From Mucilaginibacter rubeus (GTDB lineage Bacteria; Bacteroidota; Bacteroidia; Sphingobacteriales; Sphingobacteriaceae): a stretch of DNA of 64,000 bases. Made by a program: the position numbers and the translations under genes. The stretch is from positions 1 through 64,000 of the forward strand of contig NZ_CP043450.1 in NCBI RefSeq assembly GCF_003286415.2, given 5' to 3'. Positions 1 through 56,407 of the stretch are shown piece after piece. Every line of letters begins with the position of its first letter. Within the stretch, counting starts at the first letter, position 1. The notes below the pieces were generated by a model. That model saw only the letters and a list, made by a program, of their open reading frames with translations, was not told where the DNA came from and did no database searches.

Positions 1-1317
1 ATGGAAGGAAGCGTATTAACCATACAAGTACCAAGTTTATTCTTTTACGAGTGGCTTGAAGAGCACTATGTAGGGTTGCTGCGCAAAACCATTAAGAAAC
101 AATTGGGCGATGAAGGACGTTTAGAGTATAATATAGTTGTTGAGCAATCATCAAGTAAACCATACACAACTAACATGCCTTCAAACGGAAATGGCGCTGA
201 TTCAAAACATCAGAGTATGCCGATACCTATTTCAATTAACAAGGACATCAAAAATCCTTTTGTTATACCCGGGCTTAAGAAGTTGAACGTAGATCCTCAG
301 CTTAACCGTAACTACACCTTCGAAAACTTTGTTGAAGGTGATTGCAACCGCTTGGCCCGTTCGGCAGGTTACGCGGTAGCTGCTAAACCCGGTGGTACCT
401 CATTTAACCCGTTGATGATTTATGGCGGTGTGGGTTTAGGTAAAACCCACCTGGCACAAGCCATCGGTAACGAAATCAAGCGCACCCTGCCCGATAAACT
501 GGTACTGTATGTATCATGCGAAAAATTTACACAACAGTTTGTTGATGCTTTAAAGCATAACAACATCAACGACTTTGTGAACTTTTACCAGGCCATTGAC
601 GTGTTGATCATGGACGATGTGCACAACTTTGCCGGTAAAGAAAAAACACAGGATTTCTTCTTCCATATATTTAACCACCTGCACCAGTCTGGCAAGCAGC
701 TGATCATTACATCAGATAAAGCGCCTAAGGATTTGGCCGGTTTGGAAGAACGCCTGCTTTCGAGGTTTAAATGGGGCCTGTCTGCCGATTTGCAGATCCC
801 TGATCTGGAAACCCGTATGGCTATCCTGAAAAATAAGATCTATCAGGACGGTATCGATCTGTCAAACGATGTGATTGAGTATGTTGCCCATAACATCGAC
901 AATAACGTACGTGAACTGGAAGGAGCCATGGTATCATTGCTGGCACAATCAACCCTTAACCGCAAGGAAATTGACCTGAACCTGGCTAAACAAATGTTGA
1001 AAAACTTTGTGAAGAACTCATCTAAAGAAATTTCGATGGAGTACATTCAAAGCCTGGTGTGCGAGTATTTTGAAGTGCCTATTGAAATGGTGAAATCACA
1101 AACACGCAAACGTGAAATTGTACAGGCACGTCAAATTTCAATGTACCTGGCAAAAGCCCATACCAAAAGCTCTCTTAAATCAATTGGTCATTTCTTTGGC
1201 GGTCGCGACCACTCAACCGTGATTTACGCCTGCCAAACTGTTGAGGACTTAATTGATACCGATAAGAAATTTAAAGGCTACGTAGCCGATATTCAGAAGA
1301 AATTAAAAATGAGCTAA
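1..1317 (+). CDS. dnaA: Chromosomal replication initiator DnaA (5' end cut by window)
   Basis: DnaA binds DnaA boxes at oriC, melts the origin and loads the replicative helicase. The visible 438 residues start inside domain I: the opening resembles the part of Bacteroidota DnaA lying about 40 residues after the true start, so the ATG at base 1 is probably internal and the gene begins outside the window. The AAA+ Walker A (GGVGLGKTH, about residue 141), Walker B (LIMDDVH, about 203) and the C-terminal DnaA signature (GGRDHSTVIYACQ, about 399) that contacts the DnaA box are all present. A perfect palindromic terminator follows. No oriC-like cluster of DnaA boxes was noticed downstream; oriC may lie upstream of the window. 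Confidence 0.97.
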   Translation: MEGSVLTIQVPSLFFYEWLEEHYVGLLRKTIKKQLGDEGRLEYNIVVEQSSSKPYTTNMPSNGNGADSKHQSMPIPISINKDIKNPFVIPGLKKLNVDPQLNRNYTFENFVEGDCNRLARSAGYAVAAKPGGTSFNPLMIYGGVGLGKTHLAQAIGNEIKRTLPDKLVLYVSCEKFTQQFVDALKHNNINDFVNFYQAIDVLIMDDVHNFAGKEKTQDFFFHIFNHLHQSGKQLIITSDKAPKDLAGLEERLLSRFKWGLSADLQIPDLETRMAILKNKIYQDGIDLSNDVIEYVAHNIDNNVRELEGAMVSLLAQSTLNRKEIDLNLAKQMLKNFVKNSSKEISMEYIQSLVCEYFEVPIEMVKSQTRKREIVQARQISMYLAKAHTKSSLKSIGHFFGGRDHSTVIYACQTVEDLIDTDKKFKGYVADIQKKLKMS

Positions 1318-36693: not shown

Positions 36694-38685
36694 TTAGTCA
36701 GCTGTGTCGGGTTTTATATCCTCCAGCTTGTCGTTGTCAAACTTATAATCAAAGTCTTTATCCATTTTATCGCGATACAGTTTCATTTTTTGTTTAAAGG
36801 CCGGGCTTTTCATATACTCCTGCAATTTTTTGCTGGCTTCTTTAAGGCGTTCTTGTGCAGCTCTGATCTCCGGGCTATCCTGGAAACCACGCATTTGCCT
36901 GCCAATATTTTTCATGTCTTCCTGTAATTTTTTAATATCAGGATTATCATAAGCCAACCTCAGGCTATCGCCCATAGCCTGCATGCGGTTTCTTTTGGAA
37001 ATAAACTCCGGCGAATCATAACGGTTGCGCATTTTCTGGCCCAGGGTTTTCAGTAGCTCTGTTTGTTCCTTTACTTCAGCAGGAATTTTGCTTTGCAGCT
37101 CGTCCTGATATTTTTTGTAGTTAGGGTCTCTGTCGTCATTATAACCGTTATAGCCATGATTGTGCGGAATGCCGTATTTTTTCTCCAGGCCCTCGTTCAT
37201 TTTTTTAAACTCGGCGCTGCTGTAATATTTACCGATGTTGTTGCCAATTTCGCCCATCTGTTCGCCAAGTTTTTTAGATTCGGATGTTTCGCCATATTCT
37301 TTCTGAAAATCCTGGCCCATTTTTTCCATTTCGAGCTTCATTTTCTCCATGCCATCGGAGTTATAATAAGCCTGCAGGGCTTTGCTTTTTGCTTCAAGCA
37401 TTTCCTGTTGCTTTTTAAAAGTATTGCTGCTGTAGTATTTGCCAATCAGCTCGCCTTGTTTGCTTACTTCGGCGCTTAGCCTTTCAAGCTGGGCATCATT
37501 AAAGCCGCTGTAGTCAAAATCTTCATGGCGTTGTTTGGCTTTTACAATTTCGGCCTGGGTTTTCTTTTTATAGGTTACAGCCTTTTTTGCTTTCACCTTA
37601 TGGGTGGTGTCATCAACAAATATGGCATGTAAGGCAGCAGGGGTAGCAACCTTTTTAACGGTTAACTTACCATCTTTTATAGTGGGGTTTAGCCAGGCAA
37701 TGCTGCTAACGCCGGCAGCCATTATAGCAATAGCCACAAGCAGGTGGCGGATATTGCCTATAGGTTTCTTCGTTTTCATGATGCGTTCAATTCTGTTTAA
37801 TAAATGATATTTTTTGCCGTTAGCAGCCAGGGCCAGCTGTAAATGCTGTTGCCTGGTTTGCTCCAGTTTAAGGAGGGCGTGCGCGTAGATTAAAGGTTGT
37901 TGCGTTGTTTGCACAACCAGATCATCGCAGCTGTTTTCACGCTCCTGGTTAATAATGCGGTTAATTAATTGGGCAAAGGGATTAAAGAATAACAGTATGG
38001 AAATAAATTGCTGCATCAGGTTCAGCAGGTAGTCGTTGCGTTTAATGTGTGAGAGCTCGTGCAATAAAATGGCTTCAACCTCGGTGGCCGATAAGTATGT
38101 AGTAAGGGTTATCGGCAACAAAATAATGGGGCTTAAAAAGCCAATCATGCAAGGGGCATCAACCATACGGCTAAAGTTTACCCACACATTTTTAGTAATA
38201 CCCAGCTTTTGGCAAAGCTCATCGGCAAAGTCCTGCAGCCTGTCTGCAGGTACCATGGTACGTTTTATCAGGCTGATCCTTTGCCAGCTTAAGCTCACTT
38301 TGAGCAGGTTGAATACCAAGCCAACAAAATAAAGGGCAGATATATAAGGGAGATAACCTTTTATAACGTATTCGTAATAGTTGTTTTGTGGTCTGGCGGC
38401 TACTTCATGCAACGGCAGGTAGAAACGTGGTAATAAAGATGGCGCGTTTGCGGATGTATAATTAACCCACTCGTGCAGCCTGAACTGATGGATAAACGTG
38501 TATATAAACCAGGCGCTGATGGTGAGCATGGCACCCATGGCCCAATTGTGCTTTTTAATAGCCGATAATTGCGGCCTGCAAATAAACACTAACCTTAAGG
38601 CAAACCAAACTAACAAACCCTGCCATACCGATTGCAGAATAGTTACGCCCAACACCTGGCTTATATTATAGAATAAATTTTCCAT
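36694..38685 (-). CDS. M56 family metallopeptidase (BlaR1-type), module A
   Basis: A 663-residue BlaR1-like membrane protease. Transmembrane helices precede and follow the zinc site HELSH (about residue 210), with the later ligand region NQERENSCDDLV; a last helix (about 295-310) precedes a periplasmic tail. The tail (about 385-650) is a charged helical region built of roughly 23-residue repeats of the type YYSSxxFKK or YDSPEF, each followed by a heptad-like stretch, and no penicillin-binding sensor domain is present. The start is ATG 38685, with a GTG one codon upstream. Its blaI lies 5 bp upstream. It is predicted to cleave that repressor on an envelope signal. Confidence 0.88.
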   Translation of the reverse strand: MENLFYNISQVLGVTILQSVWQGLLVWFALRLVFICRPQLSAIKKHNWAMGAMLTISAWFIYTFIHQFRLHEWVNYTSANAPSLLPRFYLPLHEVAARPQNNYYEYVIKGYLPYISALYFVGLVFNLLKVSLSWQRISLIKRTMVPADRLQDFADELCQKLGITKNVWVNFSRMVDAPCMIGFLSPIILLPITLTTYLSATEVEAILLHELSHIKRNDYLLNLMQQFISILLFFNPFAQLINRIINQERENSCDDLVVQTTQQPLIYAHALLKLEQTRQQHLQLALAANGKKYHLLNRIERIMKTKKPIGNIRHLLVAIAIMAAGVSSIAWLNPTIKDGKLTVKKVATPAALHAIFVDDTTHKVKAKKAVTYKKKTQAEIVKAKQRHEDFDYSGFNDAQLERLSAEVSKQGELIGKYYSSNTFKKQQEMLEAKSKALQAYYNSDGMEKMKLEMEKMGQDFQKEYGETSESKKLGEQMGEIGNNIGKYYSSAEFKKMNEGLEKKYGIPHNHGYNGYNDDRDPNYKKYQDELQSKIPAEVKEQTELLKTLGQKMRNRYDSPEFISKRNRMQAMGDSLRLAYDNPDIKKLQEDMKNIGRQMRGFQDSPEIRAAQERLKEASKKLQEYMKSPAFKQKMKLYRDKMDKDFDYKFDNDKLEDIKPDTAD

Positions 38686-38690
38686 CACGT

Positions 38691-39068
38691 TTATTTTTTG
38701 TCCTGATCAAATTGATTCAAAAAGTTTTTAATAGCGTCAATCTCGTCTTTTGATGCGCGGTGCTGGCCAAGCGCCTGAATCACCAAGTCGGAAGTAGAGC
38801 CTTTAAATACAGTAGACAAGATTTTATCCAGAGCGTTGCTTTGCGCCTGCTCCATTGTGAATAAAGCTTTGTATAAATGTGTTTTTGAAGTGGTGTCGCG
38901 CTCAACCATTCCCTTATCATGCATAATCTGCATGAGTTTTAAGGTGGTGGTGTAACCGGCATCCTTGTTTTTAGCAAGCTCCTCGTGAACTTCACGTACG
39001 GTGCACTGGCCCTTTTTCCAGATTACCTGTAAAATTTCAAGTTCGCTTTCTGTTGGTTTAATTTCCAT
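38691..39068 (-). CDS. BlaI/MecI/CopY family repressor, module A
   Basis: A 125-residue winged-helix repressor (KPTESELEILQVIWKKGQCTVREVHEELAK), with recognition helix TTTLKLMQIMHDKGMVERD and a C-terminal dimerisation helix pair. The ATG at 39068 is chosen because homologues start MxIKPTESELEIL; an upstream in-frame start adds 28 residues across the operator. Cleavage by the M56 partner is expected in the C-terminal part. Two palindromes TACGAA-N4-TTCGTA lie just upstream of the start (39083-39122), consistent with autorepression. Confidence 0.92.
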   Translation of the reverse strand: MEIKPTESELEILQVIWKKGQCTVREVHEELAKNKDAGYTTTLKLMQIMHDKGMVERDTTSKTHLYKALFTMEQAQSNALDKILSTVFKGSTSDLVIQALGQHRASKDEIDAIKNFLNQFDQDKK

Positions 39069-39082
39069 CTGTCTCTCTTTAT

Positions 39083-39122
39083 TACGAATTTCTTCGTACA
39101 AATATCTACGATGGATTTCGTA
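39083..39122. promoter_or_regulatory. Tandem operator palindromes upstream of blaI A
   Basis: TACGAATTTCTTCGTA (39083-39098, perfect 6-4-6) and TACGATGGATTTCGTA (39107-39122, one mismatch) have centres 24 bp apart. The same TACGAA half-site class occurs upstream of blaI C. No exact -7 box was found on the minus strand here. Confidence 0.65.
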
Positions 39123-39210
39123 TTTGCAAGCGATTAAGAAAATATTTAACAAATTTTAACGGTTGGGGGAGAAGTGAGTGGTTGATTGGGTTGATTAGGT
39201 GAGTGGTTAT

Positions 39211-41421: not shown

Positions 41422-42903
41422 CTAATCCACTAATATTTTCATTGCCTCCCCAGCCACCACCTGACCCGAAATAATAGCAGGCGGTACACCAGGACCCGGT
41501 ACCGTAAGTTGCCCGGTATACAGTAAATTGTTAATGTGTTTTGCCCGCATGGCTGGTTTAAAAAAAGCCGTTTGCGCAAGTGTATTGGCCAAACCGTAAG
41601 CGTTGCCCTTAAATGAGTGATAATCGCTCTTAAAATCATTAAGCGCGTAACTCCGTTTCACTACAATTGAGCTGCGTATGTCATGCCCGGTAATACGGGC
41701 AAATCTGTCCATCATCAGGTTAAAGTATTTTGCGCGCGTGCTTTCATCGTCATTTAGTCCCGGAGCTATGGGCATCAGGAAAAACAGGTTCTCGCCGTCT
41801 TCAGGAGCCACGGTGTTATCTGTTTTTGAACTGCAGCATACATAAAACAAGGGGTTGGTTGGCCACTGTGGCGAAGTGTAAATTTCTTTGGCGTGCAGTT
41901 CAAAATCTTCATCAAAAAATAAATTATGATGCTGTATGCCGGGTACTTTTTTATTGGTGCCGATATAAAAAAGCAAGCTGGATGGCGACATAGTGCGGCT
42001 GTTCCAGTATTTAGGCGTGTAATTGCGATGGGGGTCATCAAGCAGATGCTGGTCAACATGCTCATAATCGGCTCCGGCAATTACCATATCGGCGTTAAAT
42101 ACGCCTTTGTTGGTTTGTATGGTGTCAACCCGTTTATCTTTTACGTTGATCTTTGTAACCTCTGTGTTTAGTTCAATTTCAACACCAAGTTCGGTAGCCA
42201 GGCTTACCATCGCTTTTACTATTTCGTTCATACCACCCATGGGGTACCATGTTCCAAGCGACAGGTCGGCATAATTCATCATGCTGTACATGGCAGGTGT
42301 GTTTTGCGGGGTAGCACCTAAAAACAACACCGGGAACTCCAGAAGCTTAACCAGTTTGGGATTTTTAAAATACTTGCGCACATGACTGCTCATGCTGGTC
42401 AACAACTGAATGCTGAAGCTTTTTTTGATGAGGTTAAAGTCGATAAATTCGGTAATAGAGTGGGAGGGGCGGAAAACATATTCGCCCATGCCTACTTTAT
42501 ATTTATACTCTGCCTGGTTCAAAAATTGGCGTAAAGCGGTGCTGCTGCCAGGCTCTATTTGTTCAAATAAAGCTTCAAGCTCGGTCATGGATGCCGGTAC
42601 ATCAAGTATCTCATTTTGACCGTAATAAACGCGATAGCCGGGATCAAGTCTTTTGAGCTGATAATAGTCGGTAGTTTTTTTACCAAACAGCGCGAAGAAG
42701 TTTTCAAACACATCGGGCATCCAGTACCAGCTTGGCCCCATATCAAACCTAAAGCCGCTCTGTTCCCAAACCCGGGCACGACCGCCGGGCTGATCATTCT
42801 TTTCCAATATGGTAACCTTATAACCTTCTTTAGCTAAAACACAGGCTGCTGATAACCCTGCAAAGCCCGATCCAATAACAATAATATGCTTGCTGCTGCT
42901 CAT
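41422..42903 (-). CDS. crtI: Phytoene desaturase CrtI
   Basis: A 493-residue FAD-dependent desaturase that converts phytoene to lycopene. The N-terminal dinucleotide fold IIVIGSGFAGLSAACVLAKEG and EKNDQPGGRARVWEQSGFRFDMGPS are classical, as is the C-terminal LLYTGQLTVPGPGVPPAIISGQVVAGE. The start is ATG 42903; an upstream TTG would add nine residues. It is transcribed divergently from crtB with a gap of about 100 bp, so the two promoters are close together. A repeat and terminator lie beyond its 3' end. Confidence 0.95.
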   Translation of the reverse strand: MSSSKHIIVIGSGFAGLSAACVLAKEGYKVTILEKNDQPGGRARVWEQSGFRFDMGPSWYWMPDVFENFFALFGKKTTDYYQLKRLDPGYRVYYGQNEILDVPASMTELEALFEQIEPGSSTALRQFLNQAEYKYKVGMGEYVFRPSHSITEFIDFNLIKKSFSIQLLTSMSSHVRKYFKNPKLVKLLEFPVLFLGATPQNTPAMYSMMNYADLSLGTWYPMGGMNEIVKAMVSLATELGVEIELNTEVTKINVKDKRVDTIQTNKGVFNADMVIAGADYEHVDQHLLDDPHRNYTPKYWNSRTMSPSSLLFYIGTNKKVPGIQHHNLFFDEDFELHAKEIYTSPQWPTNPLFYVCCSSKTDNTVAPEDGENLFFLMPIAPGLNDDESTRAKYFNLMMDRFARITGHDIRSSIVVKRSYALNDFKSDYHSFKGNAYGLANTLAQTAFFKPAMRAKHINNLLYTGQLTVPGPGVPPAIISGQVVAGEAMKILVD

Positions 42904-42972
42904 GTTTAATGTGAAGCCCAAGGTAAGCAAATTGTTTTAGGCCCATTAAAAAACAATACGGCTTTGAATTTG

Positions 42973-42980
42973 TACTTTTG
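42973..42980 (+). promoter_or_regulatory. -7 box of the crtB operon
   Basis: TACTTTTG matches TAnnTTTG. Its position places the transcript start near 42987, which favours the crtB start at 43002 or 43005 over the earlier ATG at 42984. Confidence 0.5.
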
Positions 42981-43001
42981 AAAATGACCACGCGAAGGCC
43001 A

Positions 43002-43835
43002 ATGATGAACCTGTACGATGAAGCCTGTTTTGAATGCAGTAAACTGATAACTAAAAAGTACAGCACTTCATTTAGTCTCGGCATTAAAACTTTCGATAAA
43101 AGTTTCCGGTATCCCATCTATGCCATTTATGGTTTTGTACGTTATGCCGATGAAATTGTGGATACCTTTCATGATTACGATCAGCAGCAACTGATAGACA
43201 GGTTTAGCGACGAAACATTTCGCGCAATCAAAGAGGGCATCAGCACTAACCCGGTTATTCATTCCTTTCAGCAAATTGTTAATCAGTATCATATTGATCA
43301 TGAATTGATCAGGGCTTTTCTGCGATCGATGGCGATGGACCTGGATAATAAGGCCTATGATAAAGAAAGTTATCAGACTTATATCTACGGTTCGGCAGAG
43401 GTTATTGGTTTGATGTGCCTGAGGGTGTTTACAAGCGATGATGTTTTATATCAGTCATTAATTCCCAAAGCCCGAAGCCTGGGGGCGGCATTCCAGAAGG
43501 TTAATTTTTTGCGTGATGTGAAGGCCGATTATACCGAACGCGGTCGTACCTATTTTCCGGGGATTGACTTTAATAATTTTACCGAGCAGGACAAACTTAC
43601 CATTGAAGCCGAAATTAAGCACGACTTTGATGAGGCTTTTGAAGGAATAAAACGCCTGCCCGTTGGCACGCGGCTTGGGGTTTATATTGCTTATATTTAC
43701 TACCTGCAGTTGTTTAAAAAAATAAGTTATACACCTGCTAACGTCATACTACAAAAACGCATCAGGGTATCGGATGCGCGCAAAATGAGTTTATATATCA
43801 AGGCTGTGCTGCAGCAAAAGTTAAATGTTATTTAA
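43002..43835 (+). CDS. crtB: Phytoene synthase CrtB (squalene/phytoene synthase family)
   Basis: A 277-residue trans-isoprenyl diphosphate synthase that condenses two geranylgeranyl diphosphates to phytoene. The family's Asp-rich motifs are visible: YADEIVD (about residue 46) and FLRDVKADYTERGRTYFP (about 166), with KYSTSFSLGI near the start. The desaturase and cyclase neighbours support phytoene rather than squalene. The next gene overlaps its stop codon (TAATG), so it heads a four-gene operon. Confidence 0.93.
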   Translation: MMNLYDEACFECSKLITKKYSTSFSLGIKTFDKSFRYPIYAIYGFVRYADEIVDTFHDYDQQQLIDRFSDETFRAIKEGISTNPVIHSFQQIVNQYHIDHELIRAFLRSMAMDLDNKAYDKESYQTYIYGSAEVIGLMCLRVFTSDDVLYQSLIPKARSLGAAFQKVNFLRDVKADYTERGRTYFPGIDFNNFTEQDKLTIEAEIKHDFDEAFEGIKRLPVGTRLGVYIAYIYYLQLFKKISYTPANVILQKRIRVSDARKMSLYIKAVLQQKLNVI

Positions 43836-44380
43836 TGTTCAGGAAGATTTTTTTTATCGTCAATATTTTGGCGCTGGTGTTCATTTTTCAATCAGTTAAG
43901 GCAGAAGAACCTAATCTTAAAGTACTGCGCAAACAAATGGTTATCGCCATTGATAAAAGCCAACTAACCGACTCGTTGTTTAATAGTCTTAATAACATCA
44001 AAGAAAAAAGCGGTATAGTAAATGGTTTCATAGGTGCTTTACTGGCGCTGAAAGCCAAACATGCCTGGAACCCATATTCGAAAGTAAAATACCTGAACAG
44101 ATCAGAAAAGGTATTTAAGCAGGCTGTAACCGCCGATCCGCATAATATCGAGATCAGGTTCATGCGTTTCTCCATTGAACACAATGTGCCTTCAATTTTA
44201 GGGTTTAATAAAGATCTTGCTGTAGATAGTGAGGATATCATAGCCCAGCTTGATAGAAAGAACTATGGTTCGGCCGATAAGGAATTGACAATAGCTATTA
44301 TCAAATTCCTGATCCATTCCAAAAGATGCACACCTGCGCAAAATCAGGTACTAAATAAACATTTAACCGAACTTACGTGA
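43835..44380 (+). CDS. Hypothetical secreted protein within the carotenoid operon
   Basis: A 181-residue protein with a signal peptide (FRKIFFIVNILALVFIFQSVKA). The mature part is mostly helical (EKSGIVNGFIGALLALKAKHAWNPYSKVKYLNRSEKVFKQAVTADPHNIEIRFMRFSIEHNVPSILGF) with a TPR-like feel, but no recognised repeat or catalytic motif. It overlaps crtB by 1 bp and the cyclase gene by 4 bp, so it is firmly part of the carotenoid operon. Its role is unknown; a periplasmic factor for pigment assembly is only a guess. Confidence 0.75.
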   Translation: MFRKIFFIVNILALVFIFQSVKAEEPNLKVLRKQMVIAIDKSQLTDSLFNSLNNIKEKSGIVNGFIGALLALKAKHAWNPYSKVKYLNRSEKVFKQAVTADPHNIEIRFMRFSIEHNVPSILGFNKDLAVDSEDIIAQLDRKNYGSADKELTIAIIKFLIHSKRCTPAQNQVLNKHLTELT

Positions 44381-45057
44381 GATACGCCTATTTATTGATC
44401 AATTTGCTCACGGTATTTTTCCCTGTGGTGCTTTCGTTTGATAAAAGGGTAGCTTTTTACAAAAGCTGGAAGTTTATATGGCCCGGCATGGGCATAACCG
44501 GTTTGTTTTTTTTGTTTTGGGACGTGCTTTTTACCATCCATGGCGTTTGGTCGTTTAACCCGGCGTACATAGTTGGCGTTAAGTTTTTTGGTTTGCCCTT
44601 AGAGGAAATGCTGTTTTTTTTAACCGTGCCCTTTGCCTGCATATTCATTTACGCCTGCCTTAATTACTACGTTAAATGGCTGATGCCATACAGGCTTACA
44701 GGTATTATAAGCAGCATGATGATATTGCTGAGTATAATGATGCTTATATTTTATCATGACCGGCTTTATACCACGGTTACTTTCAGTTTGTTGCCGGTAT
44801 TGGTTTTACTGATTCAGTATATTTTTAAGGCCGATTGGCTTAACCGGTATTACCTGGCGTACTTTGTAGCTCTTTTGCCGTTTTACATTGTGAATGGCAT
44901 ATTAACTTCGATACCCATTGTGCTGTATAACAATGCCGAGAATATCGGGAAACGCGTAGGTACTATCCCTTTTGAAGATCATTTTTACCTGATGGCGTTA
45001 TTGCTCATGAATATTGGTTTCTTTGAATACTTTAAACAACGGAAATTAAGCCGATGA
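44377..45057 (+). CDS. Lycopene cyclase, fused CrtYc-CrtYd type
   Basis: A 226-residue integral membrane protein with about six to seven helices. Two lycopene-cyclase domains are fused: the first has FGLPLEEMLFFLTVPFACIFIY (PxEE motif), the second contains PFEDHFYLMALLLMNIGFFEYF. The heterodimeric type in Gram-positives is split into CrtYc and CrtYd; here both are in one chain, as in many Bacteroidota. It would make cyclic end groups on lycopene. It starts with GTG, overlapping the preceding stop codon (GTGA). Confidence 0.88.
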   Translation: MRYAYLLINLLTVFFPVVLSFDKRVAFYKSWKFIWPGMGITGLFFLFWDVLFTIHGVWSFNPAYIVGVKFFGLPLEEMLFFLTVPFACIFIYACLNYYVKWLMPYRLTGIISSMMILLSIMMLIFYHDRLYTTVTFSLLPVLVLLIQYIFKADWLNRYYLAYFVALLPFYIVNGILTSIPIVLYNNAENIGKRVGTIPFEDHFYLMALLLMNIGFFEYFKQRKLSR

Positions 45058-46735: not shown

Positions 46736-46809
46736 TCCTGAGTAGCTCAGCCGGTTAGAGCATCTGACTGTTAATCAGAGGGTCGCTGGTTCGAGCCCAG
46801 CCTCAGGAG
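46736..46809 (+). tRNA. tRNA-Asn (anticodon GTT)
   Basis: A 74-nt cloverleaf. The acceptor arms TCCTGAG/CTCAGGA pair perfectly. The D-arm is AGCTCAGCCGGTTAGAGC, and the anticodon stem TCTGA/TCAGA carries loop CTGTTAA (GTT at 46770-46772). The T-arm is GCTGGTTCGAGCCCAGC. CCA is not encoded; the gene ends at discriminator G. A 12-bp hairpin terminator with T-run starts 2 bp later. Confidence 0.97.
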
Positions 46810-46810
46810 C

Positions 46811-46955: not shown

Positions 46956-46987
46956 CTTGAATTTGTATTAGCATTTTGGTAGGTTTG
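46956..46987 (+). promoter_or_regulatory. Promoter of the AraC-permease fusion gene
   Basis: TAGGTTTG (46980-46987) matches the -7 consensus. CTTG (46956-46959) lies 20 bp upstream as a weak -33 box. The predicted transcript start is about 20 bp before the TTG start codon at 47014. Confidence 0.5.
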
Positions 46988-47013
46988 GGAAAGACACAAG
47001 CGCCTAAACTTAT

Positions 47014-50000
47014 TTGATCCCATTTACACTCCATATTACCCTTTATGACATCGCGTTTTTTGGTGCTGTATTTATCAGCTTAACGCTATCGCTATTCCTA
47101 TGGATTGCCCCTAAGGAGAACCAGTCTGCAAACCGTTGGTTGGCGATCTTAATGGCCATTGTTGCTTTGTGGATGATCCGGATTTTATCGGCCGATATTG
47201 ATCTGGTAAAATACAATGCATTGTGGAGCCGTTTACCATTACGGTTTTCGCTGGCAATTGGTCCCTTGATCTATTTTTACTTGAGGCAGATAGCCCAGCC
47301 AAAGTATACCTTCCGTCGTAAGGACCTGCTGCACTTTATACCCGTACTGCCCGAAATAAGCTTTCAGGTATTTGCTGCAATACAAAACGTAAATACAGGC
47401 GATGCTATTTACAGCAAATATAACACCGCATTGCAGCTACTCGCATTCCTGTCAGTCGCCATTTATTTGTATTTATCCTATACACAGATTAACGAGTTTT
47501 ATCAGAATAAAAAATTTAACGGGGGCGACCGTTACCGGAACGAGTTGCTTTGGTTAGAACGCTCGGTTACCGTACTCGGCATGCTATGGTTATTATGGAT
47601 CCCGTTTACAGCTGTTGACTATTTTTACTACCACCACAAATTAAGCATACAGCTTTATTATCCCTTGTATCTTCTTTTGCTATCCACGATCATTTGGATC
47701 GCGGCGAAAAGCCATTTGGAAACAGAAATTGTCGTGACCGCTGATGTCGCTGTAAAATCATTATTGCCGGCAGATCTGAAGCAAAAAGGCTACTGGTTAA
47801 AAATGGAGATCAAAGAGAAAGGTTACTACCGGGATGCGGAATTAAGCCTAAACTCGCTTGCCGACAAACTCGGTTTACATACTCATGAATTATCCCGGAT
47901 TATTAATACGGTTCTCAAAAAAAGCTTCAACGATTTTATTAATGAATACCGTGTACGTGAGGTTGCACTCAAGATGCAAAACCCATCGTATGATCATATT
48001 ACCTTGCTTGGTCTTGCCTATGAATCGGGCTTTAATTCGCAAAGTAGCTTCCACCGTATTTTTAAACAATTTACCGGTAAAACCCCGCTGGAATATAAAA
48101 ATCATCTTCAAAAAGTTCTCCCATCTTATAACTTGAGAGGTTTTATCCAACCTATGCCGTTAATATTGAACCATGTAAACCCTGCGGGGTGGGCACATGG
48201 AAAATTAACCGGCAGTCATATGATAAAAAACTATTTTAAAATTGCATTCCGCGGATTTTGGAGGCATAAGCTATTTACACTGATAAACATTATCGGTTTA
48301 TCTATAGGTATAAGCGCTTTCCTTGCCATTTACTTTATTGTACATTACGATTTTACATTTGATAAATTCCACAAGGACAGCGACCGGATTTACCGCGTTG
48401 TTATGAACATGTCATTTCAGGGACATAAAAACTATTCAAGTGGCGTATTTGGCCCTCTGGCCGGGGCGATTAAAAGCCAAGCCACAGGAATAGAGGAGAT
48501 TACGCCGTTATATGCACTGTCATCTCATTTTGTCTATATCGACAAAGATAAAAATGCACAAAAGCGGTTTAAAGACGTAGACAAGATAGCACTTGTCGAT
48601 CAGCAATATTTTAAAATTTTTAATTATGTATGGCTTGCCGGCTCATCGCAACACGCGCTTGATGCGCCCGGCCACGTAGTATTAACATCCCAGCAAGCCA
48701 GACTTTACTTCCCCTTGTTGTCGTATCATGAAATGATTGGTAAAGTAGTTACCTATGATACCTTAAAGATAACCGTTAGCGGCATAGTTGAAACGTTTAC
48801 CCAAAATAGCGACTTTATCTTTCATGACTTTATTTCCTTTAGTACCGTCACGACTAATAAACAATTAGCTGATGACCTGCAGATAAACAATTGGGGCAGG
48901 ATCTCTTCGGCATCGGAGATTTTTATAAAGCTGGCGCCTGGCGCTCCTGCACCAGGGATTGTAAAACAGATCAATACCATTCTTAAAAAAAACAATCAGC
49001 CGCAGGGGGAACAAAAAATGCCTGTGCCTATTATAAACCTGGCCTTGCAGCCATTGAATGATATTCATTTCAATCCCGACTACAACATTTTTAATTTCTC
49101 ATCGCCAGCCAGCAAAACAACGCTTTACGGATTACTGGCCAGCGCTATCTTTTTGTTGTTGCTCGCATGTATCAATTATGTGAATTTAACTACGGCCCAG
49201 GCCGCACAAAGAGCAAAAGAAATCGGGATACTCAAAACTTTGGGCAGTAGCCGGATACAATTAGTAATTCAGTTTTTAGGCGAAACATTTTTTATGACAT
49301 CCGTTGCAGTTTGCATATCGATTTTGCTTGCGCCAGTTATTCTAAAAATGTTTGCGGACGTTATATCCCCGGATATTCATGCAAATATTCTGCAGCCGGA
49401 TATCATACTCTTCCTGCTGATTTTAACTATTGTGATAAGTGTTTTGTCGGGTTTTTATCCCGCAATGGTGTTATCAGGTTTCAAGCCGGTAACGGTGCTA
49501 AAAAACCAGGTTCGGGGTAATAGCAATAAAACACGGAACTCGCGGCTCCGTAAGTCGCTTACCGTTTCGCAGTTTGTTGTTGCCCAGTTTTTTATAATGG
49601 CTACAATTTTGGTAAACCAACAAATTTATTACGCATTACATAAAAATCTCGGGTTTAAAAAAGACGCCATCCTGATTATTAATACACCCTGGGAAACCAG
49701 TAAGACCAGCACCAACCAGGTACTGCTGAACGAATTCAGATCGATGCCGCAGGTTGCCCTTGTGGGTTTAGGTAATGACCCACCTTCTGCTGATGCATTT
49801 AACAGGACGCGCATGACTTATGACGATGGAAAAAAGCAAATTACAACAGAAGAAATAGTAGTTAAGTCGGGTGATGAAAACTACATCAACATATACCAGA
49901 TTAAGTTGCTTGCCGGCAGAAACATAACCGAAGCCGACACCGGAAAAGCCATCATCATTAACAATACCTACGCTAAATTATTAGGATTTACTAACCCCCA

Positions 50001-50694
50001 CGAAGCTGTCGGGAAGCAGTTGGATTGGTTTGGCGGCCGAAAAGTTAGTATTATTGGCGTAGTTGCTGATTTTAATCAACGGTCGCTGCATTCCACCATT
50101 TATCCGTCTATCATAACATCGGGCAGTCCAATCCCCCGGCCAATGATGACCTTACATGTTAGTTTGAAACCTGAAACCGCAGGCGGTCATGAGTGGAAAA
50201 CCGCCATTACAAATATGGGAAAGGCCTGGAAAAAGGCCTATCCCGATGATGACTTTGATTGCCATTTTTATGACGAAACGATAGCCTGGTTTTACGATAA
50301 AGAACAACACACTTCAACGCTGCTCACCTGGGCAACAGGTATCTCGATATTAATCAGTTGCCTCGGGCTATTAGGGCTTGCCGTTTACACCACCAACCAA
50401 CGGACAAAGGAAATTGGCATACGCAAGGTATTTGGTGCCAGTGTTGCGCAAATAGTGATCCTGCTATCAACCGAACTGATATCGCTTATTTTACTGGCTT
50501 TTGTTATAGTAACTCCAATAGCCTGGTACGCTGTAAATAAATGGATGGAAAGTTTTGCCGACCATGTAGCTATTAGCTGGTGGGTATTCGTTGTCAGCGG
50601 CGCGGGAATGCTGCTTACCGGACTATTTACTCTAAGTTTCCGAACCATTAAGGCAGGTATGGCAAACCCGGTGAAGAGTTTGCGCAACGAATAA
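47014..50694 (+). CDS. Fusion of membrane AraC-type regulator and FtsX/MacB-like ABC permease
   Basis: A 1226-residue polypeptide. Residues about 1-230 form roughly seven hydrophobic helices (7TM-type sensor). Residues about 275-375 are an AraC DNA-binding domain (LNSLADKLGLHTHELSRIINTVLKKSFNDFINEYRVREV; GLAYESGFNSQSSFHRIFKQFTGKTPLEY). From about 403 (MIKNYFKIAFRGFWRHK) it is a complete 824-residue MacB/FtsX-type permease: N-terminal helix, periplasmic domain, three-helix FtsX block, a second periplasmic domain and a last FtsX block. The start is TTG; stop codons directly upstream exclude a longer frame. No stop codon separates the two parts. Internal initiation at 48220 would give a free permease. 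No partner ATPase gene lies nearby. Confidence 0.85.
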   Translation: MIPFTLHITLYDIAFFGAVFISLTLSLFLWIAPKENQSANRWLAILMAIVALWMIRILSADIDLVKYNALWSRLPLRFSLAIGPLIYFYLRQIAQPKYTFRRKDLLHFIPVLPEISFQVFAAIQNVNTGDAIYSKYNTALQLLAFLSVAIYLYLSYTQINEFYQNKKFNGGDRYRNELLWLERSVTVLGMLWLLWIPFTAVDYFYYHHKLSIQLYYPLYLLLLSTIIWIAAKSHLETEIVVTADVAVKSLLPADLKQKGYWLKMEIKEKGYYRDAELSLNSLADKLGLHTHELSRIINTVLKKSFNDFINEYRVREVALKMQNPSYDHITLLGLAYESGFNSQSSFHRIFKQFTGKTPLEYKNHLQKVLPSYNLRGFIQPMPLILNHVNPAGWAHGKLTGSHMIKNYFKIAFRGFWRHKLFTLINIIGLSIGISAFLAIYFIVHYDFTFDKFHKDSDRIYRVVMNMSFQGHKNYSSGVFGPLAGAIKSQATGIEEITPLYALSSHFVYIDKDKNAQKRFKDVDKIALVDQQYFKIFNYVWLAGSSQHALDAPGHVVLTSQQARLYFPLLSYHEMIGKVVTYDTLKITVSGIVETFTQNSDFIFHDFISFSTVTTNKQLADDLQINNWGRISSASEIFIKLAPGAPAPGIVKQINTILKKNNQPQGEQKMPVPIINLALQPLNDIHFNPDYNIFNFSSPASKTTLYGLLASAIFLLLLACINYVNLTTAQAAQRAKEIGILKTLGSSRIQLVIQFLGETFFMTSVAVCISILLAPVILKMFADVISPDIHANILQPDIILFLLILTIVISVLSGFYPAMVLSGFKPVTVLKNQVRGNSNKTRNSRLRKSLTVSQFVVAQFFIMATILVNQQIYYALHKNLGFKKDAILIINTPWETSKTSTNQVLLNEFRSMPQVALVGLGNDPPSADAFNRTRMTYDDGKKQITTEEIVVKSGDENYINIYQIKLLAGRNITEADTGKAIIINNTYAKLLGFTNPHEAVGKQLDWFGGRKVSIIGVVADFNQRSLHSTIYPSIITSGSPIPRPMMTLHVSLKPETAGGHEWKTAITNMGKAWKKAYPDDDFDCHFYDETIAWFYDKEQHTSTLLTWATGISILISCLGLLGLAVYTTNQRTKEIGIRKVFGASVAQIVILLSTELISLILLAFVIVTPIAWYAVNKWMESFADHVAISWWVFVVSGAGMLLTGLFTLSFRTIKAGMANPVKSLRNE

Positions 50695-50938: not shown

Positions 50939-51316
50939 ATGGTGGCTAAAGAACTTACAAGAGCGGAAGAACAGGTAATGCAAATATTGTGGCAATTGAA
51001 CGAGGCAATGGTAAAGGAAATAATTGAGCAAATGCCCGATCCTAAACCTGCGTATAATACAGTATCAACTGTTGTGCGGGTAATGGAGGGCAAAGGTTTC
51101 GTTAACCATAAAGCATATGGAAATACCCATGTTTATTTTCCGCTGGTTAGTGAAGCGCAATACAAGAAATTTACCTTCGATAAGATGATGAATAACTACT
51201 TCAGCAATTCTTATAAAAGCCTGGTTTCTTTTATTGCCAATGAAAAAAAGCTGGATCTCCGGCAGCTGGATGAACTAAGTGACTTATTGGAAGACCTTAA
51301 AAACAAAAAGAAATGA
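50939..51316 (+). CDS. BlaI/MecI/CopY family repressor, module B
   Basis: A 125-residue winged-helix repressor: LTRAEEQVMQILWQLNEAMVKEIIEQM, then recognition helix AYNTVSTVVRVMEGKGFVNHK and a C-terminal dimerisation segment. It differs from modules A and C in the recognition helix (TVSTVVRVM versus TTTLKLMQIM), in line with its different operator sequence. The partner M56 gene overlaps its stop codon by 4 bp (ATGA). It is expected to repress its own operon. Confidence 0.93.
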   Translation: MVAKELTRAEEQVMQILWQLNEAMVKEIIEQMPDPKPAYNTVSTVVRVMEGKGFVNHKAYGNTHVYFPLVSEAQYKKFTFDKMMNNYFSNSYKSLVSFIANEKKLDLRQLDELSDLLEDLKNKKK

Positions 51317-53514
51317 ACTGGCTACACTACCTTGCGGAAGCTAATATTTATCTCTCAATTTTCTACCTGGTTCAATGGTTGTTAATGAGGGGGGATACGC
51401 ATTACCAGTTAAAGCGATTTTATATACTGTTTGGCTGTATAGTAGCATACATACTACCGGTTTTGCAAGTTGGTGCACTAAAGCCGGCTAAGGAAGTTCC
51501 GGTTACTAATTATATGGTTTATACCATACCAACTGAACCCGCAAAAATTCAACAGCAGCCAGCCTCAGTTTCATTCAAGGAGATCGCGATTCCTTCCAAA
51601 ATCGCGCCCATAATCGAAGAGCCATTTACTTTTGAAGATGGAATTTGGTACGCCTATTTGGCTGGTGTGGGCATTACACTCATTTTATTCCTGTTAAAAA
51701 TGTTTACGTTGTTCAGGTTGGCCCGGAACAAACCGTACTCAAAAAACAGAAAATATAAAATAGTTTATTTGCCTGGCAGCGATGAAGCTTTTTCTTTCTT
51801 TAACTATCTTTTTATCGGAACCACTGCATCAGCATCGCAAATAATCATCAGGCATGAACTGGTACATATCAGGCAAAAACATTCGGCCGATATTATGTTG
51901 CTGGAGTTTTTTAAAATAATTAATTGGTTCAACCCCTTTTTGTACCTGCTGCAAAGCAGCCTGCGAACTTTACATGAGTATATAGCCGATGAACAAACCG
52001 CGTCTGAAACAACAGATAGGTTTGCGTACGCCACTTTTTTGCTAAATAATGCCTACGGCACCGGCGGACCGTCCATCACGCAATCGTTTTTTACCAATAA
52101 CCTATTAAAAAAGAGGCTCATTATGCTAAACAAACAACGTTCAGGTAAATTAGCAAGGCTGAAATACCTGGTCACTATCCCGGTGTGTTCATTGTTACTA
52201 TGCTCATCAACACTTGTCTTTAGTAAAAACTATGGCTGGTTTGATCTTGATCCGGCAAAGAAAAAAATGGAGGGGAGATATAATTCCAATCATCTTAACC
52301 ATGGTAAACAAAAATTGCTGAAAGTAACACAAAATGGCGTAACTACCATAACTAATCAGCTTACTGTGAACCAGGCAAATGGGCAAGTGCTTTATACGGC
52401 CAACTCAATTACCGAAGAAGAGAAATTATCGCTATCTAAAAAACAGCACATGAAAGTAGAGGTTGTTGAAGATAGCACAGTATTTACAACAACTGATGGT
52501 AGGCTGATGCTCCCGGTAGTAGGGGTAGACGGATACTATCAGATGGATCACTTTTTACACAAGCATATTAACTTCAATGCATCAAAAGACGAAAGGGGAG
52601 GCTTGGTTGAAGTTGGATTTGGACTTGATAATAACCGACATATAACCGACGCAAAAATTGTTAAAAGTGGCGGCGCTAAATTGGATGCACTTGCTTTAGA
52701 TGGATTTAGGTCATATAAAGGAATTGTGAATGATGACCCGGGGCGTAACTATAAAATAGTCGTTTATTTTTTTACGCATGATTATTCAATTTTTCAAACA
52801 GACTCGCTGAGTAATGATCCTGAATTTGCCGGAGAACTGATTATAACAAACTATAAATATCCTATTAGTACAACCAGCAAAGGATATGAATACGATGAAA
52901 GCCCCGCCGGGCCTGGATATATTGTAAACGGTAAACCGCAGGGGAGGGTGATCATTTATGATAAAAATGACGAGGGGCAATGGTATTATCAGAACAAATG
53001 TACTGCTGATGATTTCAGCCTGCTAAAAAATAAATATGGCTATACTTTTCCTTCGGCATCAACTTCTGTTATTCAATTTATGCATCCGGAAAATGTAAAG
53101 AAGAACAGGCTTGCCTATATTTATGATGCTACCTCTTATTTAGCAACGCCCTATTCCGGTCAATTTTATAATCATGTGATTGATAGTGTCGTTTATCCGG
53201 AGCAAGCTAAAAAAGCACTTAAAGGCGGCGTGGTTATTTTAGGTTTTAACTTAAATGGCAGCGGGATGATCAGCGATATTAAAGTTGAACAAGGTGGGGG
53301 CAATGGCTTTGACGAAGCGGCCGTAAATGCCCTCCAATCTTATAAATTGCCGGTTGCCGATGAGGCAGGCAGGCACAGCATAGCCATAGTATTTTGTGTA
53401 GCCGAGAAGAAATATCGCCCATCGCTCAATAGATACCTGATGGCCGGAAAGTATGTTGGCGAACTGGCTGTACCCGATATGAAGCCGATGTTCAAGTTTG
53501 GGCGGAGTAATTAA
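51313..53514 (+). CDS. M56 metallopeptidase with two TonB C-terminal domains, module B
   Basis: A 733-residue membrane protease. N-terminal hydrophobic helices are followed by the zinc motif HELVH (about residue 184) with later ligand HEYIADEQT, and a further helix at about 293. The periplasmic tail contains two TonB C-terminal domains: about 380-490 (GLVEVGFGLDNNRHITDAKIVKSGGAKLDALALDGFRSY) and about 610-700 (GGVVILGFNLNGSGMISDIKVEQGGGNGFDEAAVNALQSY). Classical BlaR1 has a beta-lactam-binding domain here instead. The TonB domains could sense or engage outer-membrane receptors; this is inference. It is coupled to blaI B. Confidence 0.88.
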   Translation: MNWLHYLAEANIYLSIFYLVQWLLMRGDTHYQLKRFYILFGCIVAYILPVLQVGALKPAKEVPVTNYMVYTIPTEPAKIQQQPASVSFKEIAIPSKIAPIIEEPFTFEDGIWYAYLAGVGITLILFLLKMFTLFRLARNKPYSKNRKYKIVYLPGSDEAFSFFNYLFIGTTASASQIIIRHELVHIRQKHSADIMLLEFFKIINWFNPFLYLLQSSLRTLHEYIADEQTASETTDRFAYATFLLNNAYGTGGPSITQSFFTNNLLKKRLIMLNKQRSGKLARLKYLVTIPVCSLLLCSSTLVFSKNYGWFDLDPAKKKMEGRYNSNHLNHGKQKLLKVTQNGVTTITNQLTVNQANGQVLYTANSITEEEKLSLSKKQHMKVEVVEDSTVFTTTDGRLMLPVVGVDGYYQMDHFLHKHINFNASKDERGGLVEVGFGLDNNRHITDAKIVKSGGAKLDALALDGFRSYKGIVNDDPGRNYKIVVYFFTHDYSIFQTDSLSNDPEFAGELIITNYKYPISTTSKGYEYDESPAGPGYIVNGKPQGRVIIYDKNDEGQWYYQNKCTADDFSLLKNKYGYTFPSASTSVIQFMHPENVKKNRLAYIYDATSYLATPYSGQFYNHVIDSVVYPEQAKKALKGGVVILGFNLNGSGMISDIKVEQGGGNGFDEAAVNALQSYKLPVADEAGRHSIAIVFCVAEKKYRPSLNRYLMAGKYVGELAVPDMKPMFKFGRSN

Positions 53515-54067: not shown

Positions 54068-54451
54068 ATGAACGCACCAAACAAACCGATAGAACCTACT
54101 AAATCTGAGCTCGAAATACTGCAGGTGTTATGGGAAAAAGGCCCCTTAACTGTACGTTCGGTAAATGATGAGTTGTTGAAGCAAAGGGATGTAAACTATA
54201 CCACAACCTTAAAGCTCATGCAGATCATGGCCGATAAAGGGATCCTGAAACGCGACGAAAGCCAGATGAAACACATATACAGTGTAGTAGAGGAGGAGCA
54301 ACAAACCAAGGCGCACCTGCTGGATAAGTTTGTGGATACCATGTACAAAGGCTCGGCCGGTAAATTGGTGATGCAGTTATTGGGGAACAAAAAAACTTCG
54401 CAGGAGGAATTACAGGAGATCAAAGACCTGCTCAAGAAACTGGAAGAATAG
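54068..54451 (+). CDS. BlaI/MecI/CopY family repressor, module C
   Basis: A 127-residue repressor very similar to module A: PTKSELEILQVLWEKGPLTVRSVNDELLK, recognition helix TTTLKLMQIMADKGILKRDE and C-terminal HLLDKFVDTMYKGSAGKLVMQLLG. The identical recognition helix in modules A and C agrees with their shared TACGAA operator class. The M56 gene follows 24 bp later. Autorepression is expected from the operator inside its promoter. Confidence 0.94.
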   Translation: MNAPNKPIEPTKSELEILQVLWEKGPLTVRSVNDELLKQRDVNYTTTLKLMQIMADKGILKRDESQMKHIYSVVEEEQQTKAHLLDKFVDTMYKGSAGKLVMQLLGNKKTSQEELQEIKDLLKKLEE

Positions 54452-54475
54452 TTAAATTCAATAAACCAAACCGTT

Positions 54476-56407
54476 ATGGATGTTACCATTGTAAAAGCAT
54501 TACCCGATTACCTGGTTAAAGCACTTTGCAGTACGCTGATCCAATCCTTGTGGCAGGGCGTGTTACTTGCCGCATTGGCAGGTATCATTATAGTTTGTAC
54601 CCGCCGCTCGAGCCCGGCCAGCAGGTATAATTTATTAATGGCAGGGCTGGCAGTTTTTGCCTGCACGGTTGTAGTTACTTTTATATACGAGGTAAACCAG
54701 GAAAAGGCGGTTCAAACAGTGGTGACCGGTCAGCAGCTTATCATTCATTCAAATGTTGTTGCGCAACCTCAGGCCAGTCCAAAAGTAAGCGATTACAAAG
54801 CAGTCTCCAGCTTTTTAAATGGGCATTCCAATAGCATTGTTTTTATCTGGCTTTTGGTGGTGATGGCGCGCACCTTGCAGTTAATGACGGGTTTACAAAG
54901 CCTTTATTATCTGCGTCGCCGTCAGATCCTGGCTGTAAGCAGGGATTGGGAAAGCCGCGTAAAACAGCTGGCCTTACAATTAGGTATTAAACGGCTGGTT
55001 GGCATTGCCGAGTCCGGCATGGCTAAAGTGCCGATGGTGATAGGCCATTTAAAGCCGCTGATCCTGATCCCGGCAGGGCTGATGACTGCCATGCCCCCGG
55101 CAGAGATCGAAGCCATACTTGTACACGAGTTGGCGCATATTCGCCGGCGCGATTATATCATGAACCTGTTGGTAAGCATGATGGAGGTTATTTTCTTTTT
55201 TAACCCCGCTGTACTTTGGATAGCATCGCTCATCCGTGCCGAACGCGAAAATTGCTGCGACGATATGGTGGTTAGCCACACCGGTAATAAGGTCAATTAT
55301 ATTAAAGCGCTGGTAGCTTGCCAGGAATATCAGTTGGCAACGCCGGCTTATGCAATGGCGCTTAGTGGTGGCAAAAATCAACTGATGGGTCGGGTAAAGC
55401 GGATGCTTTCTGATAATAATCAATCGTTAAACGTAATGGAGCGGTCAATGCTGGCTGTTGCCCTGGTTGCGACAATCCTGCTCACTACTGCTTTTTCACA
55501 TAAAGAAAACATAGATCAGCTGGTTAACAAGATGGTACATGCCGGTAAAACGGCGCTGGTGCCTCATAAGCAAACCAAACCGCCGGCTAATCCTGCAAAA
55601 CCCAAATCCATTGAAAAAAATGCGCATGCAGCTTCACCGGTAACCAAGGATACTTCCTATAAAACACAACTGGATACCTCGCTGTTCAGGATCTACCGCC
55701 CCGATGAAGTTGGCGACCACACCTCCTTAACATTTCCTAATGACGGTGTGCAAACCCGATTGCTCAAGGTGGATGGTGTATTGTATCAGGTGAACACATT
55801 GAACGGTCGCGTTACATCCATGCAGGTTAATGGCAAAACAATACGGCCAAATGAATATGCACCTTATTTGCTTGTTGTTGATAAGGAAACGCAACGCAAA
55901 CCGGTAGTTGCACCAGTGGCGCAAGCAGCACAGGCCGCGCAGGTAGCACGACAGCCTGACCCTATAACCCCGATCAATACTACTGCGGCCGGCAATGTAA
56001 ACGGTCAGGTGGGCTTAAGAAGACTGAATGGAAACCTTGGCAGTCTTAAATCAACATTGAATGCCTATGACGCGAGCAGTAAGGCTTATAATGGCACTGC
56101 AGTAAATTATAGTGCTGTTAATCCTTATCCGGCCAATTATAAAGCTTATCATGATGATTCCAACCGGGCAAAGCTGACCGATGATCTCATTACCGAAGGT
56201 ATTATTCATAGCAGCGATGAACTGACTTCATTTAAATTAAGTGATACGGAGTTTATTGTTAACGGTAAAAGAATACCCGACAACATTTACCAGAAATTTA
56301 AGAAAGCATACGTAAAACAACCCGAAAAAGGTAAGCAGGGAAGCTGGAGCTGGATGTACAATTATACTGAACAAACAGAACCAGCAACCGGCGATCATTC
56401 GCAATAA
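54476..56407 (+). CDS. M56 family metallopeptidase (BlaR1-type), module C
   Basis: A 643-residue membrane protease. Helices at about 17-35, 55-75 and 115-135 precede the zinc motif HELAH (about residue 216) with downstream RAERENCCDDMV; another helix sits at about 330. The periplasmic tail of about 300 residues is Pro-, Ala- and Gln-rich at first (VAPVAQAAQAAQVARQ) and ends with a short ordered DELTSFKLSDTEFIVNGKRIPDNIYQKFKKAY segment. No beta-lactam-sensor or TonB domain is seen. Together with blaI C it forms a two-gene unit; the outer-membrane protein follows 108 bp later. Confidence 0.87.
   Translation: MDVTIVKALPDYLVKALCSTLIQSLWQGVLLAALAGIIIVCTRRSSPASRYNLLMAGLAVFACTVVVTFIYEVNQEKAVQTVVTGQQLIIHSNVVAQPQASPKVSDYKAVSSFLNGHSNSIVFIWLLVVMARTLQLMTGLQSLYYLRRRQILAVSRDWESRVKQLALQLGIKRLVGIAESGMAKVPMVIGHLKPLILIPAGLMTAMPPAEIEAILVHELAHIRRRDYIMNLLVSMMEVIFFFNPAVLWIASLIRAERENCCDDMVVSHTGNKVNYIKALVACQEYQLATPAYAMALSGGKNQLMGRVKRMLSDNNQSLNVMERSMLAVALVATILLTTAFSHKENIDQLVNKMVHAGKTALVPHKQTKPPANPAKPKSIEKNAHAASPVTKDTSYKTQLDTSLFRIYRPDEVGDHTSLTFPNDGVQTRLLKVDGVLYQVNTLNGRVTSMQVNGKTIRPNEYAPYLLVVDKETQRKPVVAPVAQAAQAAQVARQPDPITPINTTAAGNVNGQVGLRRLNGNLGSLKSTLNAYDASSKAYNGTAVNYSAVNPYPANYKAYHDDSNRAKLTDDLITEGIIHSSDELTSFKLSDTEFIVNGKRIPDNIYQKFKKAYVKQPEKGKQGSWSWMYNYTEQTEPATGDHSQ

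Follow-up and report, generated by a model that had tools for sequence, protein, structure and literature searches.

The DNA analysed here, hereafter the window, is a 64,000-nucleotide stretch of the Mucilaginibacter rubeus genome (contig NZ_CP043450.1, positions 1 to 64,000), and its positions 47014-50694 (+) hold one uninterrupted open frame of 1226 codons, with an in-frame stop as the third codon upstream of the TTG start. The encoded protein is composed, in order, of a seven-helix membrane (7TM) domain, an AraC/HTH_18 domain, a linker, and a duplicated MacB/FtsX permease (Table 1). An earlier sequence-only reading had described a single frame of 1226 residues joining a 7TM-AraC regulator to a complete permease, and both the open frame and the Pfam domains confirm this description. 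The boundaries given in that reading, at about residues 375 and 403, were likewise right, as the HTH ends at about residues 363-371 and the first permease methionine is residue 403.

Table 1. Features of the fusion gene and its upstream region (window coordinates).
Feature	Position	Strand	Basis or remark
Promoter-like box TTTGGGAAAGACACAAGCG	46984..47002	+	Fusion-family consensus TTTGGAACAGCGATTG[A/C]G
TTG start codon	47014..47016	+	Sole usable start following the in-frame stop upstream
Seven-transmembrane sensor-like domain	47041..47718	+	AlphaFold2 model, mean pLDDT 74.5
Approximate recombination breakpoint, residues 281-300 (near 290)	47854..47913	+	DNA identity step versus L081
AraC-type HTH_18 DNA-binding domain	47857..48102	+	Pfam HTH_18, residues 282-363, E 8e-14
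Linker, residues 372-402	48127..48219	+	Disordered in model; pLDDT <50 over 367-400
Small upstream linker hairpin	48133..48150	+	Frequent family form TTGGGA-N6-TCCCAA
Main linker hairpin	48153..48214	+	Ends five bases before permease ATG; synonymous-reshuffle folding, pair counts
Duplicated MacB/FtsX permease, residues 403-1226 plus stop	48220..50694	+	MacB_PCD and FtsX, two stretches each
Internal ATG, first permease codon, possible second start	48220..48222	+	ATG in 73/73 fusions

The direct neighbours of the fusion gene are a PfkB-like kinase gene, a tRNA-Asn gene (window 46736-46810, 203 bases upstream of the fusion start), and a BlaI/M56 pair; no partner histidine kinase and response regulator are found among them. 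Three pairs of a BlaI-like repressor and an M56 peptidase occur in the window (36694-39152, 50939-53514, and 54068-56407), with the domains shown for the genes at 50939 and 51313 and the other two pairs judged from sequence; the M56 peptidase beside the fusion also has a TonB_C domain. What look like carotenoid genes, encoding a phytoene desaturase-like protein, a phytoene synthase-like protein, and a membrane protein similar to lycopene cyclase, occupy 41422-45057, and a DnaA-like gene lies at the very start of the window (1-1317), which makes it probable that the origin is where the assembly starts.

The HTH_18 match of the window protein scores 52.1 bits against a cut-off of 33.6, which identifies a two-HTH AraC/XylS domain, and its structural matches in Foldseek are AraC domains of the YesN type. 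Since MacB_PCD (PF12704, E 3.4e-27, best stretch 422-655) and FtsX (PF02687, E 1.1e-23, best stretch 710-822) each match twice, the permease half is of the duplicated kind; its best Foldseek matches are MacB, LolCDE, BceAB, and YbbAP. An AlphaFold2 model covering residues 1-850 (that is, the 7TM domain, HTH, linker, and first permease half) places the seven helices at residues 10-31, 34-61, 79-94, 111-128, 133-165, 172-204, and 212-235 and the HTH at residues 253-364, with a pTM of only 0.45, at which the domain arrangement is not fixed by the model. Because positive and charged residues are concentrated in loops 1-2, 3-4, and 5-6, the 7TM domain is predicted to have its N-terminus outside and its C-terminus inside, with the HTH in the cytoplasm; on the same topology reading the permease half would also start on the cytoplasmic side.

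In its MacB_PCD and FtsX domains, its sequence and Foldseek matches, its N-terminal amphipathic helix, and a coupling-helix-like motif (R.KEIGI.K..G) that occurs twice, the fusion resembles the type VII ABC permeases MacB, LolCDE, and FtsEX, but it has neither a fused nor an adjacent ATPase and carries an N-terminal 7TM-AraC regulator. It shares internal duplication, large paralogous families, and the lack of an adjacent ATPase with the ADOP permeases (TIGR03434), which are not known to have ATPase neighbours; however, the window protein reaches 279 bits against the TIGR03434 cut-off of 622.3, and that model contains no AraC domain. Stand-alone 7TM-AraC regulators of Bacteroidota (L028 and L075) have the same 7TM and HTH_18 layout, but they end right after the HTH and lack the linker element. 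A literature search found no paper on this AraC-permease fusion.

The same 7.63-Mb genome carries the fusion at eight places, the window gene and seven paralogues, and 73 distinct fusion junctions were gathered from many species, so that the architecture is far beyond chance. A junction profile matched 61 of 400 sampled genomes of the host's taxonomic family, of which one (G007) proved to have an unfused AraC protein; the 60 carriers are mostly Mucilaginibacter, a group of soil bacteria (M. gossypii, M. aquaedulcis, M. phenanthrenivorans, and others), and Hufsiella is another named carrier. The copy numbers per genome in this survey are lower bounds (at least 8 for the highest), and a few copies have shortened frames. 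An intact fusion is also present in a Chitinophagaceae MAG (L102), and in Olivibacter domesticus the junction was matched over its whole length, although the frame is absent from the collected set. Among 395 genomes sampled across the phylum, the matches outside the family were limited to a frame-disrupted copy (L074, in G679) and unfused relatives. Tandem clusters of several fusion genes were seen at G292:C16:23862-58684 and G393:C18:63410-113663. The distance from the HTH to Met403 is constant in 67 of 73 members. The loss of a stop codon suspected in the sequence-only reading does not hold, because the fusion dates far back, is found in many genomes, and keeps a constant linker length; beyond that suspicion nothing speaks for a lost stop or a sequencing artefact in the M. 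rubeus genome, and the intact paralogues in the same genome together with the carriers across the family leave this explanation with practically no probability. The other option raised there, an integrated sensor-transporter, is favoured by the same age, spread, and constancy. Three of the paralogues lack part of the 7TM domain (L019, L020, and L021, at 6007690, 3954293, and 1162908), and one of these (L021, G000:C1:1162908-1166410) is split into two frames at 1162908 and 1164293, apparently by a frameshift, suggesting that the membrane sensor is partly dispensable or that some copies are decaying.

The two halves of the protein have had very different histories. In a tree of the AraC halves of 71 fused and 35 unfused proteins, the fused proteins form one clade (support 99) with no unfused protein inside it, whereas a tree built from 32 fused and 78 stand-alone permeases intersperses the fused halves with the stand-alone ones: the label "fused" switches 19 times, and well supported branches force at least 15 of these switches (both are quick trees with SH-aLRT support only). 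The median pairwise identity is 63% for the AraC halves and 31% for the permease halves; in one pair of loci (L066 and L084) the AraC parts share 79% and the permeases 25%, and among paralogues within the genome identity is 55-75% for the HTH domains but 29-48% for most permeases. The halves do occur as separate proteins, which the earlier reading had proposed to look for in relatives: stand-alone 7TM-AraC proteins are present there, outside the fused clade, and no permease frame was seen around the two closest of them (L028 and L075). Within the host genome, stand-alone permeases are up to 59% identical to the permease half. In all 73 fusions the join sits at the permease ATG. These trees indicate that the front end—7TM domain, HTH, and linker—arose once and was re-attached to many permeases at the permease ATG. 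A permease half swapped many times behind a constant regulator suggests, in turn, that the pump signals directly to the regulator.

Comparison with locus L081 reveals a further border inside the window gene, where DNA identity is 53-68% over residues 1-280, rises to 87-95% over residues 301-580, and is mostly 81-93% beyond residue 580, to residue 850. L081 and L061, for their part, are mostly 83-97% identical in the 7TM part and first permease half and 57-75% identical over residues 301-400. Judged by this step in identity, the window gene is itself a mosaic with a breakpoint near residue 290, and we infer that modules were exchanged by homologous recombination at conserved borders. A broader version of this idea, which we advance tentatively and consider doubtful as a whole, is that of a recombination-driven combinatorial family in which 7TM, HTH/linker, and permease modules would be swapped at about residues 290-300 and at the permease ATG, the chassis would sample the permeases of the genome, and the linker hairpin would either assist recombination or work as an RNA switch that decides between fusion and free permease. 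The dN/dS ratios relative to L081 (0.012 for the HTH, residues 300-370, and 0.163 for the permease) indicate that both halves are under purifying selection; such low values imply protein-level constraint on both domains.

The conserved cassette extends upstream of the gene. TTG, reported for the window gene by the sequence-only reading, is the aligned start codon in 63 of 71 members (ATG in 4, GTG in 3), and such conservation marks it as a family trait rather than a sign of decay. In 52 of the 71 members the promoter-like box precedes the start by 30-32 nt; its GG-N10-GC spacing fits a sigma54 -24/-12 element, with the -12 C usually replaced by A, and an rpoN gene is present in the M. rubeus genome. 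If it is a sigma54 element, the box would leave almost no leader before the TTG start. A palindrome, AAAACCGAAC-N8-GTTCGGTTTTGTTACA, was found by search pattern 96-98 bases before the start in 38 members and is not recognisable in the window copy; upstream conservation ends sharply about 24 bases above its centre-right half. The half-site GTYCGNTTTYRTTACA has 25 matches in 12 fusion-bearing genomes (reversed-pattern controls, 3), and an AraC-type front end follows 20 of the 25, a stand-alone permease one. In 20 genomes of the same genus that lack a junction match there are 3 matches (control, 1), all beside a divergent stand-alone permease. At loci L187 and L190, in two genomes, the half-site has near-identical flanks and precedes an unrelated gene resembling one for a secreted protein.

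An operator and promoter conserved with the cassette at fixed distance, a constant front end before variable permeases, and a linker that is disordered in the model are what would be expected of transcriptional capture only, in which a promoter and regulator cassette moved to control permeases and the covalent link has no signalling role. Under that explanation, however, the fixed linker length would be unaccounted for, an unfused protein might be expected within the fused AraC clade, and the frame would hardly have stayed open in nearly all members over a large divergence although a stop is easily acquired. We therefore consider capture without signalling unlikely, although promoter capture as such is compatible with direct signalling by the permease, our main explanation.

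Several synonymous sites of the linker are kept across members (P370 CCA in 63 of 64, V383 GTA in 51 of 51, S385 TCG in 42 of 43, L398 TTA in 52 of 56, and R400 CGC in 61 of 64), and relative to L081 its dS is 0.16 with a dN/dS of about 0.9, compared with a dS of 0.34 and a dN/dS of 0.16 in the permease. Compared with reshuffles of its synonymous codons, the main hairpin folds more stably (z averages -1.85 over 72 members and is -1.84 for the window gene, with control regions at -0.3 to -0.6). In the named linker structure 74% of cells are paired, against 33-42% in slid controls, and its covariation score is higher; the slid controls nevertheless reach similar counts of two-sided changes, so that covariation counts moderately support the main hairpin and the reshuffle test provides the stronger evidence. 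The small upstream hairpin has 65.9% of cells paired and two-sided changes in 5 of 6 pairs, and is poorly formed in the window copy. No consensus structure emerged from RNAalifold with the full set of 69 linkers, and comparison of the linker with Rfam gave no relevant match. A covariance model of the linker element matches only the eight fusion junctions in the host genome and, across 13 genomes, gives one marginal extra match (E 0.4, in another genome); because the element occurs in the host genome only at fusion junctions, an RPE-like dispersed palindromic element inserted in frame was ruled out. Synonymous-site conservation, hairpin folding, and the substitution rates together point to DNA- or RNA-level information in the linker.

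Such information could serve the production of two proteins from one gene, the full fusion from the TTG and a free permease from the ATG at 48220; in this case the linker hairpin would govern either RNA processing or initiation at the internal site. The invariant ATG at residue 403, the synonymous-site conservation, a hairpin exceeding codon and protein constraint, the low dS and near-neutral dN/dS of the linker, and the retention of a weak-type start codon in most members all accord with this arrangement. Yet the conserved ATG could be what repeated fusion with free permeases left behind, and a search of the linker for a second promoter was negative: the upstream motif does not recur in it (its median rank there is 102 of about 2000). 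Two products from the gene are thus a possibility, though not one that we expect to prove right; they would not conflict with signalling by the permease.

A MacB-type permease would require an ATPase. No ABC ATPase was found beside the fusions in 30 loci scanned for Walker A and signature motifs, mostly over several kb per side, and the adjacent MacB-type partner sought since the sequence-only reading is accordingly absent there, while likely candidates exist at a distance. An array at G000:C1:2155588-2222407 (L011-L014) contains about 22 duplicated FtsX/MacB permeases in tandem on one strand and has at its ends a histidine kinase, an NtrC-type regulator (2159292-2160650, carrying GAFTDA in place of GAFTGA), an adaptor-like gene, two MacB-type ATPases (at 2162511 and 2220391), and a TolC-like gene. 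The GG-N10 spacing of the upstream box, the fixed distance of the palindrome, and the rpoN gene would suit a sigma54-dependent NtrC-type regulon, whereas the usual A at -12 and the GAFTDA motif would not. In 10 of 12 genomes a half-site variant, GTACGCTTCTGTTACA (9 genomes) or GTTCGCTTCTGTTACA (1), separates the gene of an NtrC-type response regulator from a divergent adaptor-like (HlyD/MFP-like) gene; in the host genome it is at 2161009, and that regulator adjoins the permease array, which ties the fusions to the array system. Most array permeases lack an exact copy of the operator half-site. Going by shared promoter elements only, the fusion permease would most likely be energised in trans by the array ATPases.

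We consider it fairly probable that the fusion is a transcription factor, tethered to the membrane, that senses what state its own MacB-type permease is in, while ATPases such as the two at the array power the permease in trans. As a one-component regulator, the fusion would hold its HTH in the cytoplasm, flanked by two membrane bundles, the 7TM domain (N-out, C-in) and the first permease helix (N-in). The permease, the 7TM domain, or both would sense a periplasmic or membrane ligand; binding of that ligand, or the permease running through its cycle, would alter HTH arrangement or dimerisation and thereby transcription, and the energy would come from a MacB-type ATPase encoded elsewhere, most likely one of the array pair. 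Permease swaps behind a constant regulator would then wire one transcriptional output to many inputs. Counting against this reading are the missing palindrome of the window copy, the paralogues with a reduced 7TM domain or a split frame, the low pTM of the model, and the lack of an ATPase next to the fusions. The nearest working precedent is the bacitracin module BceAB-BceS, in which the MacB-like permease BceB is required for the kinase BceS to sense bacitracin (PMC5985334). In that module, too, a MacB-like permease passes a signal to a regulator, as proposed for the fusion; there, however, the role of regulator falls to a histidine kinase, a protein of its own, with a response regulator, whereas the fusion has its DNA-binding domain in the same chain.

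If this reading is correct, hardly any flux- or substrate-sensing circuit could be shorter than a transcription factor covalently linked to a type VII ABC permease. The repeated permease swaps behind one regulator would amount to a natural experiment in which signal specificity should follow the permease half, and promoter elements held in common would link large families of orphan duplicated permeases with candidate partners, namely ATPases, adaptors, and outer-membrane proteins. Another regulatory-looking domain is joined to the same permease type at L022 (G000:C1:228171-230954), the first of four tandem permeases, whose N-terminal extension resembles the N-terminal region of FecR/anti-sigma proteins.
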